A DNA stretch of 64,000 nucleotides from Pontibacter litorisediminis. Its GTDB lineage: Bacteria; Bacteroidota; Bacteroidia; Cytophagales; Hymenobacteraceae. The position numbers were made by a program, and so were the translations under genes. The notes under the pieces are model-generated. The model saw only the letters and a list, made by a program, of their open reading frames with translations. It did not search any database and was not told where the DNA came from. The DNA is taken from NCBI RefSeq assembly GCF_029360645.1, contig NZ_JARDUA010000004.1, positions 1 to 64,000 on the forward strand, given 5' to 3'. Below are positions 19,689-64,000 of this stretch, piece by piece (within the stretch, counting starts at the first letter, position 1; each line of letters begins with the position of its first letter).

Positions 19689-19720
19689 TTTTGCAAATAA
19701 AAAACTATGCCCCATATTTG
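19689..19720 (+). promoter_or_regulatory. tRNA-Val promoter
   Basis: TTTTG at 19689-19693 and CATATTTG at 19713-19720 are separated by 19 nt, one mismatch from TAnnTTTG. The start would fall near 19726, almost exactly where the duplicated tRNA unit begins (19724). Confidence 0.65.
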
Positions 19721-19759
19721 CATCATCAAACGAGGACGGAAGGTCATCGAAAGCATCAC

Positions 19760-19834
19760 GGGGTGTTAGCTCAGCTGGTTCAGAGCACCTGCCTTACAAG
19801 CAGGGGGTCACTGGTTCGAATCCAGTACGCCCCA
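19760..19834 (+). tRNA. tRNA-Val(UAC), copy 1
   Basis: A 75-nt cloverleaf. The acceptor GGGGTGT pairs with ACGCCCC with a G-T pair, the anticodon arm is CCTGC-CTTACAA-GCAGG with anticodon TAC, and the T arm is intact. CCA is not encoded. It reads GUA and, with modification, other valine codons. Confidence 0.97.
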
Positions 19835-19835
19835 C

Positions 19836-19863
19836 AAAAGGACAACTGCAAAGTTGTCCTTTT
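19836..19863 (+). terminator. Terminator after tRNA-Val copy 1
   Basis: A perfect 12-bp stem AAAAGGACAACT with its complement, 4-nt loop GCAA and terminal TTTT. Confidence 0.85.
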
Positions 19864-19939
19864 CTTATGTGTATACTTTTTCTATCTCTTACCTCTCCGG
19901 TAGTTAAGGATTAGCATAAAAGTAGCAGCACATCTATAA

Positions 19940-20079
19940 CATCAAACGAGGACGGAAGGTCATCGAAAACATCACGGGGTGTTAGCTCAGCTGGTTCAGA
20001 GCACCTGCCTTACAAGCAGGGGGTCACTGGTTCGAATCCAGTACGCCCCACAAAAGGACAACTGCAAAGTTGTCCTTTT
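19940..20079 (+). repeat. Tandem tRNA-Val unit, copy 2
   Basis: Second copy of the 140-nt leader-tRNA-terminator unit, offset by 216 nt. The sequence between the copies (19864-19939) is unrelated to the promoter upstream of copy 1. Confidence 0.9.
19976..20050 (+). tRNA. tRNA-Val(UAC), copy 2
   Basis: Identical to the copy at 19760-19834 over all 75 nt. No TAnnTTTG-like promoter is visible in the 76 nt before the duplicated leader, so its expression may depend on read-through from copy 1. Confidence 0.97.
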
Positions 20080-20082
20080 TTT
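20052..20082 (+). terminator. Terminator after tRNA-Val copy 2
   Basis: Same 12-bp stem and GCAA loop as the first copy, with a longer T run. Confidence 0.88.
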
Positions 20083-20224
20083 ATATCCCTACTTTTTCAT
20101 TCCTGCTCGTAATGCGCACATTCGGTGCAGGTTATACTTTACCAACGCCCCACTGCCAGGCATAGTATATCTCTCCTGCCATCGTTACTACGGCAGCCAG
20201 TAGTTTCCCAAAAAATTAAATGGT

Positions 20225-32324: not shown

Positions 32325-32720
32325 TTTGGATGTACTTTTTATACTTCTCTGGCGCAAGCGTCGGCTTGTGCCTTCTTATACTTTAGCCACTGCTTCCCAC
32401 TGCTTGAACCAAGGCGTCCTTACTAGCTACTGCTTATCCACAGCCTTACAAGCGGCTCTTTTCATAGCCAGCTTTCTGCTCTCCAACCCGAGATGGCTCG
32501 TCTTGGGGGTAGGGGCCCTCGATAAGGGCATCGCGCTAGGAGCTTTTCCTTTGCTCCTGCGTCGCAATGCCTTCGGCACCGGAAATCTAGAAGGCGCTCA
32601 ACCCAAAGACTGGGTCCATATTTCGATAGCCACTGCCTTTGCTGTGGAACAAGTATAGTTCCCCTCCTTGGTTAAGGTGGGGCTAGGGGTGGTTGGAACC
32701 GGTGCTGCAGAAAGCGAATC
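32325..32720 (+). repeat. Modular intergenic repeat, copy R1
   Basis: Shares ordered blocks with R2, R3 and (reverse complement) R4: CTGGCGCAAGCG at 32349, CAGCCTTACAAGC near 32440, GGGGTAGGGGCCCTCGATAA with GGGCATCGCGCT at 32505-32537, GGCACCGGAAATCTAGAAGG near 32575 followed by CGCTCAACCCAAAGACTGGG, and a closing AGGGGTGGTTGG. A 110-codon open frame spans it but is broken in the other copies. Confidence 0.8.
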
Positions 32721-37639: not shown

Positions 37640-38010
37640 ATACTTTATGCTTACCTGGCGCAAGCGTCCGCTTGTGTCTTCCATAGCCAATCTACTTGAA
37701 ACAAGCTAACCTTTCCAAACCACCGCTGATCCTCTAGTTCCCATAAGCCTATAGTTTCATTTCTGGCTTTGGCTCCCTCCCGGCCGGGTGGCCTCGCCTT
37801 GTGGGTAGGGGCCCTCGATAAGGGCATCGCGCTGTCTACATTTCCTTTGCTCCTAACGTCGCAATGCCTCGCTCTCGCTCGGCACCGGAAATCTAGAAGG
37901 CGCTCAACCCAAGGGCTGGGAACAAGTTCGATAGCTAAGGCAGACGGAGCTTGGACAGAGCTCCTCTCCTTTGACAGGGAGGGGCAGGGGTGGTTGGAAT
38001 TGGCACTGCA
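37640..38010 (+). repeat. Modular intergenic repeat, copy R2
   Basis: Same block order as R1: CTGGCGCAAGCG at 37655, CCGCTGATCCTC, GGTAGGGGCCCTCGATAAGG at 37805 with GGGCATCGCGCT, GGCACCGGAAATCTAGAAGG near 37881 and CGCTCAACCCAAGGGCTGGG. Then GATAGCTAAGGCAGACGGAG, which is shared with R3 but not R1, and a closing GGAGGGGCAGGGGTGGTTGG. It has a small insertion (CGCTCTCGCTC) before GGCACC. Confidence 0.8.
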
Positions 38011-59994: not shown

Positions 59995-60621
59995 TTAGTT
60001 TCGGTGATAAGTCAGCGAATCGAGGAACAACTGAATTACCTTGTTGTCCTGATGGTCGCTGCCGGTGTTAAGCATCGTGATAAAGATTATACCCTCGCTC
60101 TCGCCGCCCAGCGCCGCCACCGTGTACCGCTGCACCTCGCTGCCTAGCTTCAGTTCCACTGTTTTCCCTTTCGCCTGCTGCCCCGACTTTAGCTTCTGCT
60201 CGAAGGGCTGCTCTGTTACACTATAGCCGAAGCTTGCCTCCTCGTTTGTCACTTCCTTCAGCATCAGGTCCACCAGGCTTGAGGGGTTAATGGACTTGTA
60301 CTTCTGCACCAGCACCCCGTTTCCGTTGGCCGTCAGCAGCGTCATTTGCTCCAGATCCGGATCGGGGGAGGTGAAGGCAGGGTGCAGTTCCTTGGGGTAC
60401 TGTAATGAAATCCAGTCGTCCTGATAGGTGAGCACATCTTTCTGCTGCACGGCCACCGTCACCTCCTTGCCATTGGCGAGTTTCATTTTATACTCTTTGC
60501 CCAGGGTGATATCCTGGGTTTTGCCGTTGATGGTGATCTGGTAGTTGGCGGCCTCGTTAGCTTGTGCCATGGCTCCGGCACCTGCCATACTTAAGAGCAG
60601 TGCGAGTAAAGTTGTTCTCAT
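59995..60621 (-). CDS. Secreted protein of unknown function
   Basis: 208 residues with a signal peptide (1-20, MRTTLLALLLSMAGAGAMAQ). The mature part looks like a small two-domain beta-rich protein: YQITINGKTQDITLGKEYKMKLANGKEVTVAVQQKD, then DWISLQYPKELHPAFTSPDPDLEQMTLLTANG and a C-terminal EGIIFITMLNTGSDHQDNKVIQLFLDSLTY. No cysteine and no recognised catalytic motif. I do not recognise the family. Monocistronic. Confidence 0.7.
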   Translation of the reverse strand: MRTTLLALLLSMAGAGAMAQANEAANYQITINGKTQDITLGKEYKMKLANGKEVTVAVQQKDVLTYQDDWISLQYPKELHPAFTSPDPDLEQMTLLTANGNGVLVQKYKSINPSSLVDLMLKEVTNEEASFGYSVTEQPFEQKLKSGQQAKGKTVELKLGSEVQRYTVAALGGESEGIIFITMLNTGSDHQDNKVIQLFLDSLTYHRN

Positions 60622-60869
60622 TTGTTTTCAGTAAAAGGTACACTTGCTGCTCAAGATAGGGAAAGCGGCATCAATATAGAAGTATAGTGATCTAAAAATA
60701 AAGGGCAGTTCATAGTGGATCTATGAGGTATCCTGTACAGCTATTCAGGTATACTATGCTTTTCCGGAGGCACAAGCGGGGCAGGCTTGCAGCCCGTAGC
60801 TTGCTGTACGCTCAGCTTTACAATCTAAGTGGCTTGAGGAACCATACTTGCTTCTGCTATACTTCTGTA

Positions 60870-61210
60870 GGCGTTTTTCCCGCAGCTTGGCACGAGCTAT
60901 CTTTTATAGCGACTGCTGATCCTCAGCCTTACAAGCCTATCGTTGCATCTCCTGCTTGGCTCCCTCCAGGTCGGGAGGCCTCGTCCTGGGGGTAGGGGCC
61001 CTCGATAAGGGCATCGCGCTGTCTACATTTCCTTTGCTGTCGCAATGCCTTCGGCACCGGAAATCTAGAAGGCGCTCTTTTTCGAGGGCCCCTACCCCCA
61101 CCCAAGGACTGGGAAATATTTCGATAGCTTAGGCTGACGGAGCTTGAATAGAGCTCTCCTCCTTAGCCAAGGAGGGGCAGGTGTGGTTGGACCCGGTGCA
61201 GCTGAATTCT
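60870..61210 (+). repeat. Modular intergenic repeat, copy R3
   Basis: Blocks in the order of R1/R2: GCTGATCCTCAGCCTTACAAGC near 60915, GGGGTAGGGGCCCTCGATAA at 60988-61020 with GGGCATCGCGCT, GGCACCGGAAATCTAGAAGG near 61046, ACCCAAGGACTGGG, GATAGCTTAGGCTGACGGAG, AAGGAGGGGCAGGTGTGGTT. It differs by a 22-nt insertion after GGCGCTC that is the reverse complement of its own GGGGTAGGGGCCC block. Confidence 0.8.
60988..61099. repeat. 18-nt perfect inverted repeat inside R3
   Basis: 60988-61005 (GGGGGTAGGGGCCCTCGA) and 61082-61099 are exact reverse complements, 76 nt apart. The second arm is the block inserted relative to R1 and R2. Confidence 0.85.
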
Positions 61211-61318
61211 CTCCCCTGCTTTTAGGAGAGGGCCGGGGTGGGATGACTTCCTCTCCTAAGAGGGGTTAGGGGTAGGCTTTCACTAGGCCAGAGTAAATGT
61301 CAGCCTCCAAAGTATACC

Positions 61319-61996
61319 TTAAAAGCTCCCGCCTTTCAGGTACTTTGTTTTTAGGAGCGGGCAGATCTTGTAACGCTCTTCTTTGGTATCCTCATATACT
61401 GCCTGCAGCACCTCGTACACGTTTTTCACGCCGATTTGGTTAGCCCACTCAAAAGGTCCTTTCGGGTAGTTGGTACCGAGCTTCATGCCCAGGTCAATAT
61501 CGTGTATCCCTGCTGTTTTCTCCTGTAGGGTATAGCATGCCTCATTGATGATCATGCATAGAAGGCGTGGCGTTACCATGCCTACACGGTCATCCACCAG
61601 CAGGTACTCTGTGCCCAGGGCCTGGCATACTTCGTCCAGTTGCGCCTGGCAGCCTTCGTGCAGCACGCTCACCTCCAGCACCGGGCGGTTGAACAGCGTA
61701 GGCAGTCCGTTAAATCCGATCAGCGTGCAAGGCTGCTCCAGCTCTGCCTGGCTTGCCAGCGCGGCCAGCTGCACCGTGGCGGCATTGCAGAAAACCACCT
61801 GCCCCGGCGCGTACATGGCCAGGCGCTCCGGCTGCTCGTGCAGCAGGAAGTCGAACACCACGTCTGTGGGTTTCAGCTGCTCATCTACCAGGGTATGGCT
61901 GTGCAGGAAAGTATAACTTACGCCTTCCCGCTCCTCCTGAAACTTTTGCTTAAACTCCACGGCCATTTCCGGGCCAGACAAAACAACAATGCGCAT
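61319..61996 (-). CDS. 3-hydroxyacyl-CoA dehydrogenase C-terminal-domain protein
   Basis: 225 residues from ATG 61996 (MRIVVLSGPEM); the open frame to 62053 would overlap ridA and is not used. The C-terminal part matches the 3HCDH C-terminal domain (VDDRVGMVTPRLLCMIINEACYTLQEKTAGIHDIDLGMKLGTNYPKGPFEWANQIG). The N-terminal half replaces the NAD-binding Rossmann domain with a shorter segment lacking GxGxxG, although DVVFDFLLHEQPERL and VVFCNAAT echo its second half. It may have lost NAD binding or use another cofactor. It diverges from ridA with 48 nt between start codons. Enzyme activity is uncertain. Confidence 0.75.
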   Translation of the reverse strand: MRIVVLSGPEMAVEFKQKFQEEREGVSYTFLHSHTLVDEQLKPTDVVFDFLLHEQPERLAMYAPGQVVFCNAATVQLAALASQAELEQPCTLIGFNGLPTLFNRPVLEVSVLHEGCQAQLDEVCQALGTEYLLVDDRVGMVTPRLLCMIINEACYTLQEKTAGIHDIDLGMKLGTNYPKGPFEWANQIGVKNVYEVLQAVYEDTKEERYKICPLLKTKYLKGGSF

Positions 61997-62004
61997 ATTT
62001 TCTG

Positions 62005-62012
62005 TACTTTTG
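62005..62012 (+). promoter_or_regulatory. -7 box of ridA
   Basis: TACTTTTG (TAnnTTTG), 32 nt before the ridA ATG. -33 element not evident. Confidence 0.5.
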
Positions 62013-62044
62013 ATAGTAAAGATACAAACTAAAACCAAACCTCT

Positions 62045-62425
62045 ATGGCACATACCATCATCAACTCTGCCAAGGCTCCTGCTCCTATCGGGCCTTACAG
62101 CCAGGCAACTATGGCTAACGGCATCCTTTATGTTTCAGGCCAAATCCCATTGAACCAGGAAACTGGCGAACTGGTGAGCAGCAGCATCGAAGAAGAAACA
62201 CACATGGTGATGAAAAACCTGCAGTTTATACTTTCAGAAGCAGGCATGGACTTCAGCAACGTAGTAAAGTGCTCTATTTTCGTGAAAGACCTGAACAACT
62301 TCGGCAAGATCAACGAGACCTACGGCAGCTACTTCACCAGCAACCCACCTGCCCGCGAAACCGTGGAGGTGAGCCGCCTGCCCAAGGATGTGAACGTGGA
62401 GATTTCGTGTATTGCAGTAAAATAG
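62045..62425 (+). CDS. ridA: RidA family enamine/imine deaminase
   Basis: Hydrolyses reactive enamines/imines such as 2-aminoacrylate that PLP enzymes release. 126 residues. INSAKAPAPIGPYSQATMANG and YVSGQIPLN open the fold; R104 in NPPARETVEVSRLPKDVNVEIS is the carboxylate-binding arginine and E119 the acid. The PLP trans-sulfuration enzyme encoded at 32833-34140 is the kind of enzyme that produces its substrate. Divergent from the 3HCDH-like gene. Confidence 0.95.
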   Translation: MAHTIINSAKAPAPIGPYSQATMANGILYVSGQIPLNQETGELVSSSIEEETHMVMKNLQFILSEAGMDFSNVVKCSIFVKDLNNFGKINETYGSYFTSNPPARETVEVSRLPKDVNVEISCIAVK

Positions 62426-62569
62426 CTTCGTGAGACGAAGGGTTTCTGACAAAAGACAGGGTTGGCAAGTATAGCTTCTCTGTCTTTTGTGTTTTTATAC
62501 TTTCTCCAACCGGCGCTGTGCCTAACCACCCCTGCCCCTTCTTGTCTTTTTCGAGGGCCCCTACCCCCA

Positions 62570-62640
62570 GGAGGGGAGCCTGTCATTGCTGATGCTAAAG
62601 TATAAGTTTCATAGCTGCTGGAGGAGCATCAGCAGAAGCA
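62570..62640 (+). repeat. 71-nt intergenic module, second copy
   Basis: Gap-free partner of 41893-41963, 60 of 71 identical. Flanked on the left by the TCGAGGGCCCCTACCCCC block. Confidence 0.75.
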
Positions 62641-62689
62641 TAAACCCACCCCTGACCCTTCCACGGAGGGGAATCAGCAGGCAACTATC

Positions 62690-63020
62690 ACCCCCTCTTC
62701 GAAGAGGAACTTTGGTTCACGTTGCTAAGCCGAGGCTATCTGAAGCTGATACCAGTCTTTGGGTTGAGCGCCTATGCGAGTTTTTCCGGTGACGAGCGAC
62801 AGCGAGGCAGCCCGAGGCACGAGGGCAGGAAAAGCTCCCAGCGCGATGCCCGAAGACGAGCCCTCTCGGGCTGGAGAGCAGAAAGCCAGAGATGAAACAA
62901 GCAGTTTGTAAGGCTGTGGATCAGCAGCAGCTAGTAAGGGAAGCTTGTGTCCAGTGGCAGAAAGCAGCAGCTAATAGCGGCACAAGCGGACGCTTGCGCC
63001 AGGGAAAGCTAATATTTTTG
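62690..63020 (-). repeat. Modular intergenic repeat, copy R4 (inverted)
   Basis: Read on the minus strand it follows R1: CTGGCGCAAGCGTCCGCTTG (62983-63002), TCCACAGCCTTACAAAC, GCTTTCTGCTCTCCAGCCCG, GGGCATCGCGCTGGGAGC, CACCGGAAAAACTCG, GGCGCTCAACCCAAAGACTG. The GGGGTAGGGGCCCTCGATAA block present in R1-R3 is cleanly missing between TCGTCTT and GGGCATCGCGCT. Confidence 0.8.
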
Positions 63021-63067
63021 CCTTGAAGCCTTACAGCAAGGCTGGCGACATTCACTCCTTTTACCCC

Positions 63068-64000
63068 TCAAATATTCGCTCCTTTGGCGGCATCACTTTC
63101 GCTGGTCGGCTCCTCCTCCGGCTCACCGTATACGTCGCGCTCGTGCTTGCCGGGCTCGGCGTTTACAGCAGAGTTGCCCACCTCCACCTCCTTCCGTATC
63201 ACCCGCACCGCATACTCTGCCGGGTAAATGTTATGGCCATACTTGCGCGAGTACACAAACGTGAAAACGGCCCCGAAAAAGATAATCTGTGAGGTAAAAA
63301 ACACCCAGGTAAGTATAATCACCACCGAGCCTGCCGCGCCGTAAACGGAGGCCATGTCGTTTTTGCCGAGGTAAAACCCGATCAGGCCCCGGAACAGCAC
63401 AAACAGCAGCGAGGTTACCAGGGCCCCCACCGTCACGTCGCGCCACTTGATCTTAGCATCCGGCAAGAATTTATAGATACAGGCAAACAGGAACGACATC
63501 AGCAGAAAGGCCGACAAAAAATTAGCCGCGTGCAGCACATACACGATCCAACCTGCAAAGCGCGCCGTCAGAAAATCACCGATAGCCACCAGTATGGTGT
63601 TGGCCAGCAGCGAGAGCAGCAGCACAATGGCAATAGTCAGGATCATTCCAAAGGAGAGCACGCGGTCTAGCACCAGCTTCACGTAGCCGCGCTTGGGCAC
63701 CGGCTTTACGTGCCATATCTCGTTTAGGGAGTCTTGCAGGGAGATGAAAACCCCTGTGGCGGCAATAAATAAGGCACTGACGCCAACAATGGCAGCCAAG
63801 TTAAAATCGCCGAACTCGTTCACGTTCTCCACCATCTTCTGCACTGAGTAGGCCCCTTCCGTACCAATCAGCTCCTTGATGCGGTAGTATACCTCCCCCG
63901 ACACGGCCTGCTCGCCGAAAAAATAGCCCGCTGCGCTGATGATGATAATGAGCATGGGTGGCAGTGCAAAGATGGTGTAGTACGCCAGCGCAGCCCCTTT
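63068..64000 (-). CDS. YihY/BrkB-type membrane protein (5' end beyond window)
   Basis: The frame stays open to the window edge. The residues upstream of the first ATG (63955) read KGAALAYYTIFALPP, the conserved YihY motif AxAYYxxFALPP, so the gene starts beyond 64000 and is partial here (at least 310 residues). About five to six membrane helices are visible, with LFIAATGVFISLQDSLNEIW and the GYLxLVLDR-like segment of the family. The C-terminus is a charged, Glu-rich cytoplasmic tail (EPEEEPTSESDAAKGANI). YihY proteins were once called RNase BN in error; their function is unresolved. Confidence 0.88.
   Translation of the reverse strand, partial: KGAALAYYTIFALPPMLIIIISAAGYFFGEQAVSGEVYYRIKELIGTEGAYSVQKMVENVNEFGDFNLAAIVGVSALFIAATGVFISLQDSLNEIWHVKPVPKRGYVKLVLDRVLSFGMILTIAIVLLLSLLANTILVAIGDFLTARFAGWIVYVLHAANFLSAFLLMSFLFACIYKFLPDAKIKWRDVTVGALVTSLLFVLFRGLIGFYLGKNDMASVYGAAGSVVIILTWVFFTSQIIFFGAVFTFVYSRKYGHNIYPAEYAVRVIRKEVEVGNSAVNAEPGKHERDVYGEPEEEPTSESDAAKGANI

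Follow-up and report, generated by a model that had tools for sequence, protein, structure and literature searches.

MUSE and the double-hairpin elements are short, GC-rich, sporadic pieces of DNA without coding capacity that are nested in and shuffled with palindromic repeats. Mitochondrial GC clusters are known to merge and shuffle palindromic elements (PMC4478555). Mosaic repeats such as BOX are also established (PMC3049150), and template switching has been described as a process that builds and repairs hairpins (PMC8794818). Short palindromic repeats are usually ascribed to a dedicated transposase (REP/RAYT) or to drift. Here, we describe repeats of Pontibacter among which a 21-nt piece appears to spread between unrelated families, while more than 100 elements per genome appear to keep their addresses and exchange their contents. 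The literature searched contained no description of these repeats.

The DNA analyzed, hereafter called the window, comprises the first 64,000 nt of contig NZ_JARDUA010000004.1 of Pontibacter litorisediminis. A first-pass annotation of the window had pointed to a block of about 20 nt that seemed to be gained, lost, and inverted among four repeats (R1 to R4), and had suggested an active micro-mobile module or recombination guided by short repeats. We propose that this block is an ultra-short non-coding insertion module, composed of the core GGGGGTAGGGGCCCTCGA and a 3- to 4-nt site-dependent tail, that resides inside high-copy palindromic intergenic repeats.

The block and its family A host repeat

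The 18-nt core GGGGGTAGGGGCCCTCGA occurs five times in the window at ≤1 mismatch, compared to 0.03 expected from shuffles, and 80 times in the 5.0-Mb genome at ≤2 mismatches, while a reversed control of the 18-mer had no match in the genome. Exact copies in the window start at 32505 (R1), 60988 (R3), 61082 (R3, inverted), and 62551 (inverted); the R2 copy at 37801 has one mismatch in its core (GTGGG...). The complete insert is 21 to 22 nt long in families A, C, D, and H, with the last 3 to 4 nt varying with the site, and reads GGGGGTAGGGGCCCTCGATAA (21 nt) at site 1 (Table 1).

Table 1. Positions in the window of the family A repeats, the block copies, and the neighboring family C palindromes
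Feature	Position	Strand	Basis
R1, family A copy with site 1 filled (32505-32525) and no block at site 2	32366..32631	+	Profile match, alleles
R2, family A copy with site 1 filled (37801-37821, 1 core mismatch) and no block at site 2	37671..37936	+	Profile match, alleles
R3, family A hairpin repeat, block at both sites	60877..61129	+	Profile match; RNA fold z = -6.6
R3 site-1 block GGGGGTAGGGGCCCTCGATAA, 21 nt, 5' arm of hairpin	60988..61008	+	Sequence, sorted flanks
R3 site-2 block, 22 nt, minus-strand reading GGGGGTAGGGGCCCTCGAAAAA, opposite hairpin arm	61078..61099	-	Sequence, junction comparison
R4, family A hairpin repeat, neither site filled	62734..62986	-	Profile match, alleles; fold z = -0.3
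R4 empty site 1, single C (element strand) where other copies hold the 21-nt block	62852..62852	-	Sequence, alleles
Block in family C palindrome loop (CTCCCCTCCT-21 nt-AGACAAGAAGGGGC)	62548..62568	-	Sequence, junctions
Empty family C palindrome immediately 3' of R3, ends approximate	61157..61193	+	Sequence; C form without block in the junction comparison
Empty family C palindrome immediately 3' of R1, ends approximate	32656..32696	+	Sequence

R1 to R4 are members of a dispersed family of ~270-nt repeats, family A, for which covariance model searches recovered at least 129 copies in the P. litorisediminis genome and no fewer than 150 in either of two relatives. The core of family A is an imperfect hairpin with GTCTT/AAGAC, GGG/CCC, and GCGC/GCGC pairings, preceded by a small front hairpin (AGCCC-GNGA-GGGCT) that alternates between AGCCC/GGGCT and AGGCC/GGCCT. 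Arm covariation is evident over 172 copies (CTCTC/GAGA in 99, CTCCC/GGGA in 31, and CTCGC/GCGA in 4), the inner stem comes in six types with a matching partner arm in most copies, and CCCG is paired with CGG in 7 of 9. Family A is a high-copy dispersed repeat whose inner stems and apical hairpins are exchangeable modules, as in mosaic intergenic repeats of the BIME/BOX kind. A structured RNA function was considered and is not claimed: RNAalifold returned only 17 pairs, 5 of them compensated, and R4 alone folds no better than shuffles. An Rfam search of positions 60600 to 63100 matched no family.

Several further observations concern the repeats and their surroundings. The apical part of family A consists of exchangeable short palindromes (GCCCTTTCGGGC, GCCGCCACGGCGGC, TTTCGCTGAAGCGAAA, and others) whose matching stems covary. 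The gene on the 3' (right-hand) side of a family A element lies on the opposite (minus) strand in 63 of 83 cases in P. litorisediminis. At loci L068 to L074, the intergenic spaces beside family A, both 5' and 3', are arrays of further repeats (CTGGCGCAAGCGTCCGCTTGTGCC, TGTCATCTCGA...GAGATGACA, and GGACAGGTCGCGACCTGTCC), which also differ between species at the same place. Elsewhere in the window, positions 19713 to 19882 and 19929 to 20098 hold two 170-nt direct copies that are 94% identical, 216 nt apart, and unrelated to the block.

The block occupies two sites in family A, one on the 5' arm of the hairpin (site 1) and one on the 3' arm (site 2). Among 89 copies extracted from P. litorisediminis, a set whose allele counts are enriched for block-bearing copies (many loci were fetched via the block), site 1 is filled in 55, the rest holding mostly a single C or T (CGGG/TGGG). 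Site 2 is filled in 12, 10 of which also carry the site-1 block and 2 of which have site 2 only, and the association between the sites is not significant (Fisher p = 0.12). The site-2 tail is always AAAAAG or CAAAG and never ATAAG, while the site-1 tail is ATAAGG or a close variant, and private site-1 variants at three loci (L009, L021, and L034) are absent from site 2 of the same element. Per-element inversion and arm-to-arm copying were rejected on account of this fixed tail difference and the unshared private variants. Because the site-2 tails differ and the private variants are unshared, R3 did not invert its own block but holds two standing alleles. The tails indicate that the site-2 block is a lineage of its own, separate from that at site 1.

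These allele counts recast much of what the first-pass annotation had described. The block does lie at a fixed place, namely, site 1, in R1, R2, and R3 (32505, 37801 with one mismatch, and 60988), and the inverted R3 copy does follow GGCGCTC directly, at a point that is uninterrupted in R1 and R2. The supposed inversion is the standard second site on the opposite arm, common to 12 of the 89 copies, with the tail AAAAAG in place of ATAAG; R3 is one of the 10 double-block copies. R4 indeed lacks the block at its usual place, but the gain and loss had been called clean and the joins are not quite so: R4 site 1 reads CGTCTT-C-GGGCATC, with 21 nt elsewhere replacing that single C, and the second copy in R3 is 22 nt replacing one A. 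R4 is an ordinary empty copy: a lone C where filled copies have 21 nt is a common allele, and what looks like an excision in R4 is thus a standing allele. The copy at 62551-62568, which had been attributed to R4, belongs to a separate family C palindrome ~165 nt away.

Insertion contexts across Pontibacter

When the flanks of all 82 matches to the block in the P. litorisediminis genome (≤3 mismatches) were sorted, the contexts were A site 1, A site 2, the loop of family C (host palindrome CTCCCCTCCT...AAGGAGGGG), one family D palindrome (CCCCCTT...AAGGGGG), and two A/C hybrids only. In other Pontibacter species, the same core interrupts repeats of family H (CTCCCTCTCCTGTTTT...GGAGAGGGCTGGGG), family F (GCGAGT..., TTACT..., and CTTGAT...), and family E (AAATCCT...GATTCAGAC), and it is also found in the apical loop of family A and in a TGTCATTTCGAACT repeat. 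Some contexts look local to single species, for example, the apical loop at L291 and at L256/L320. At one codon position in a Y1_Tnp gene, relatives are empty or carry a D repeat, and P. litorisediminis has a D repeat with the block in its loop. Genus-wide, the 18-nt core was found in at least eight sites of at least six unrelated palindromic repeat types, with precise junctions.

Junctions were derived by comparing the empty and filled forms of each repeat and were obtained for A site 1, A site 2, C, D, E, F (two sites, F1 and F2), and H. With the replaced base set off by hyphens, they read TTTT-T-AGG in H (26 empty, 12 filled), CCCCCTT-T-GAAGG in D (28 of 47 empty forms; 16 filled), GGGT-T-GAGCGCC at A site 2 (125 empty, 13 filled), and CCT-T-... 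in C (64 empty, 11 filled). In H, C, and D and at both A sites, 21 to 22 nt substitute for one base, usually T; in E no base is lost at insertion, and in F ~19 nt enter a T run. The block tails are nearly fixed per site. In predicted folds of the empty forms, the junction lies in or beside a loop for H, D, C, F1, and A site 1, and weakly so for E, while the F2 insertion point is inside a predicted stem. The GGG...GGG at A site 1 looked like a 3-bp target-site duplication, a candidate that fails in every other context; in E and F no base is duplicated apart from T-run ambiguity.

With one genome sampled per species, the closest relative being ~88% identical at genes, the block (≤1 mismatch) was present in 47 of 50 Pontibacter genomes, at 0 to 72 copies each. 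No exact match was found in 235 sampled genomes of the same order outside the genus, 23 of them from the same family, and the named database matches to the block are Pontibacter and two Nocardioides. Because at least eight sites in at least six repeat types are interrupted, usually with replacement of one T, the block is, as far as its junctions indicate, a genuine ultra-short insertion module.

Exchange among dispersed copies and the origin of insertions

We matched family A elements of P. litorisediminis to those of two relatives by their flanking DNA, which yielded 38 orthologous pairs. Orientation was the same in 38/38 pairs; these positions are probably inherited, because independent insertion, given the orientation bias, would agree in only about half to two thirds of cases. 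The site-1 state was concordant in 10/23 and 6/13 scorable pairs, where shuffling of the pairs gave 12.2 and 6.3. Sequence identity, compared separately for the two arms, the front hairpin, and the apical region, was the same in orthologous as in shuffled pairs. Nearest neighbors within a genome were on average closer than those between genomes for the apical region, and closer for most genome pairs for the right arm, while the left arm of P. litorisediminis had no such excess; overall, this within-genome signal is modest. Some module alleles are species specific, for example, ATCTAGAAGG (46/87, 6/47, and 0/25). From this pattern of fixed addresses and exchanged contents, we infer ectopic gene conversion, or recombination, between copies that share short conserved segments, and the presence or absence of the block at any one element would mainly reflect shuffling.

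Two of the matches, at L033 and L040, are hybrids that consist of the left half of an A element through the block, followed by the right half of a C element; in five relatives, the A element at L033 is of full length. Since A site 1 and a C block lie in direct orientation 160 to 310 nt apart at three other loci (L037, L058, and L066), recombination or slippage between two blocks would explain the hybrids. As judged from their joins at the block, the two hybrids show that the block probably also seeds deletions.

The annotation's suggestion of recombination guided by short repeats is supported for what is seen in the window: orthologous block states are scrambled, and two elements are fused exactly at the block. 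Its micro-mobile module holds over the history of the genus, in view of the range of sites and repeat types, while a recent jump in the window and ongoing activity are unsupported. It had named copies always in the same context as an observation that would speak against mobility, and this is partly what we see, the 82 genome matches being confined to A site 1, A site 2, the C loop, one D loop, and two hybrids. At the junctions, where it had advised identifying target duplications, one base is instead replaced in H, C, D, and both A sites.

The P. litorisediminis genome contains five Y1_Tnp loci. At four of the five, neither the block nor family A was found within ~1.5 kb, and no intact RAYT gene is flanked; the fifth locus is interrupted by the D repeat that carries the block. 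Across the 50 genomes, Y1_Tnp and block counts were not correlated (Spearman 0.11, p = 0.43). Seven genomes that lack a Y1_Tnp match contain as many as 65 block copies (65, 50, and 46 in G040, G030, and G048). A RAYT was accordingly rejected as the current driver, given the uncorrelated counts and the lack of flanking by the block. Separately, we observed a D-type palindrome at the same codon position of a Y1_Tnp (RAYT-like) gene in five species (L100, ~1600-1670, G000 C2:260406, and, in relatives, L196, L197, L199, and L207), where it appears to disrupt the frame. In a tree of this gene with weak internal support, the D carriers are not grouped, suggesting parallel insertion or exchange. Palindromes of the TTTCGGATTTGTAATCCGAAA type flank the RAYT-like genes at L097 and L099 and are likely the REPs of these genes.

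The best explanation overall, which we regard as somewhat probable, is rare insertion by microhomology template switching at hairpins followed by ectopic recombination. The block would rarely be copied into a new palindrome position, typically replacing one T at or beside the loop, as the junctions suggest, and most likely by polymerase template switching at stalled hairpins via 1 to 4 nt of junction homology. Block-bearing and block-free versions of a repeat would then be exchanged between its copies, more than 100 of which are dispersed in the genome, through gene conversion or ectopic recombination, with recombination enzymes presumed to act over short conserved segments, so that an element gains or loses the block without changing place. 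Closely spaced direct copies may recombine and delete the intervening DNA, and R1 to R4 would be a snapshot of this exchange among dispersed copies. We favor template switching as the rare insertion step because Y1_Tnp counts are uncorrelated with those of the block, intact genes are unflanked, and block-rich genomes without Y1_Tnp exist. Against it, the junction homology is only 1 to 4 nt, the F2 insertion point is inside a predicted stem, and the switching is deduced from junctions in genomes compared at no closer than ~88% identity. Loss and re-insertion at hotspots, instead of in-place exchange, could also give orthologous and random pairs equal identity; the 38/38 orientation agreement argues against this, and the 63/83 orientation bias weakens that argument but does not remove it. 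The simplest assumption is that the block is selfish or neutral for the cell.

Other origins of the insertions were weighed against the same data. We think it unlikely that the block is a ~21-nt non-autonomous transposable element moved as single-stranded DNA into hairpin loops by an HUH/Y1 (RAYT-like) or other transposase. The precise junctions in at least eight sites of at least six repeat types, mostly after T, would suit such an element, as would the GTAG motif within the block, the five Y1_Tnp loci, and the lack of target duplication, which is typical of IS200/IS605-type insertion; the right end of the insert varies with site, though, one base is lost rather than conserved, and neither the counts over the 50 genomes, the seven Y1_Tnp-free genomes, nor the unflanked RAYT genes point to a Y1 transposase. 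Just as doubtful is a purely vertical mosaic, in which every repeat family acquired the block a single time in the distant past and the block increased only as its hosts multiplied and recombined, with no insertion since the genus began. The confinement of the 82 genome matches to A site 1, A site 2, C, one D, and two hybrids and the nearly fixed tails agree with this, but the apical-loop contexts at L291 and L256/L320 look species local, and one site in the Y1_Tnp gene is empty, D, or D plus block depending on the species. Quasipalindrome correction, by which intra-hairpin template switching would have copied the site-1 block to site 2, was suggested by the position of the two sites on opposite arms and by the strong covariation of other arm segments; we consider it very improbable, given that site-2 tails are unlike site-1 tails in 12/12 cases, private site-1 variants are uncopied, two elements have site 2 only, and the sites are not associated (p = 0.12). 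A bolder reading, less likely than not, is that the block is a bacterial ultra-short invasive element, 21 nt without terminal repeats, that is actively copied into unrelated hairpin loops by an unrecognized enzyme or by hairpin-directed replication; if true, it would be among the smallest mobile DNA units known in bacteria. As a caution, the presence or absence of the block is not to be read as recent jumps.

Comparison with known systems

REPs, REPINs, and BIMEs associated with RAYTs share with the Pontibacter repeats high-copy short extragenic palindromes arranged in mosaics and a GTAG motif (PMC3116915, PMC3733652). In contrast to a REP, a 20- to 40-bp imperfect palindrome with an unpaired terminal GTAG, the block has a palindrome of its own of ~9 nt and an internal GTAG (GGGG-GTAG-GGG) that is not an unpaired foot; it is no hairpin unit alone, its hairpins forming only with some flanks. 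None of the intact RAYT (Y1_Tnp) genes has the block at its flanks, and the number of RAYTs does not follow that of the block. The terminal inverted repeats and target-site duplications of MITEs are likewise missing from the block, which is rich in G at its left end and reads ANAAA at its right, so that the two ends form no inverted repeat. ISPpu9, ISPa11, and IS1397 also use palindromic repeats as insertion targets (PMC1525189), but these are kilobase-sized and encode their own transposase, while the block is 21 nt and encodes none.

The BOX elements of Streptococcus (boxA/B/C) are likewise composite repeats in which an optional inner module varies while the outer parts stay (PMC3049150). The boxB module, however, is found in BOX alone and varies in the form of tandem arrays, whereas the block is not tandem and is shared by six or more unrelated types of repeat. 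Template-switch (quasipalindrome) mutation is similarly hairpin associated and produces multi-base compensatory changes and copied segments (PMC8794818). There, the inserted segment is the reverse complement of its own opposite arm; here, site-1 and site-2 tails differ in every element, and the block would come from a different repeat and not from the other arm of its hairpin.

The fungal mitochondrial GC clusters and ultra-short elements (yeast GC42, double-hairpin elements, and Podospora MUSE) are also short, GC-rich, sporadic, and non-coding, and the block, itself a short GC-rich non-coding piece of sporadic occurrence nested in other repeats, nests, merges, and shuffles with other palindromic repeats as GC clusters do. 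GC clusters and MUSE are mitochondrial, are mostly palindromes themselves, and have putative target duplications reported, whereas the block is bacterial, ~21 nt, and barely palindromic (AGGGGCCCT) and replaces one base. These repeats would offer a natural system for measuring hairpin-driven template switching, gene conversion, and short-repeat deletion in bacteria. By this comparison, mitochondrial GC clusters are the nearest counterpart of a 21-nt module that appears to move between six or more unrelated types of repeat, and the module resembles mobile micro-elements so far known mainly from mitochondria.
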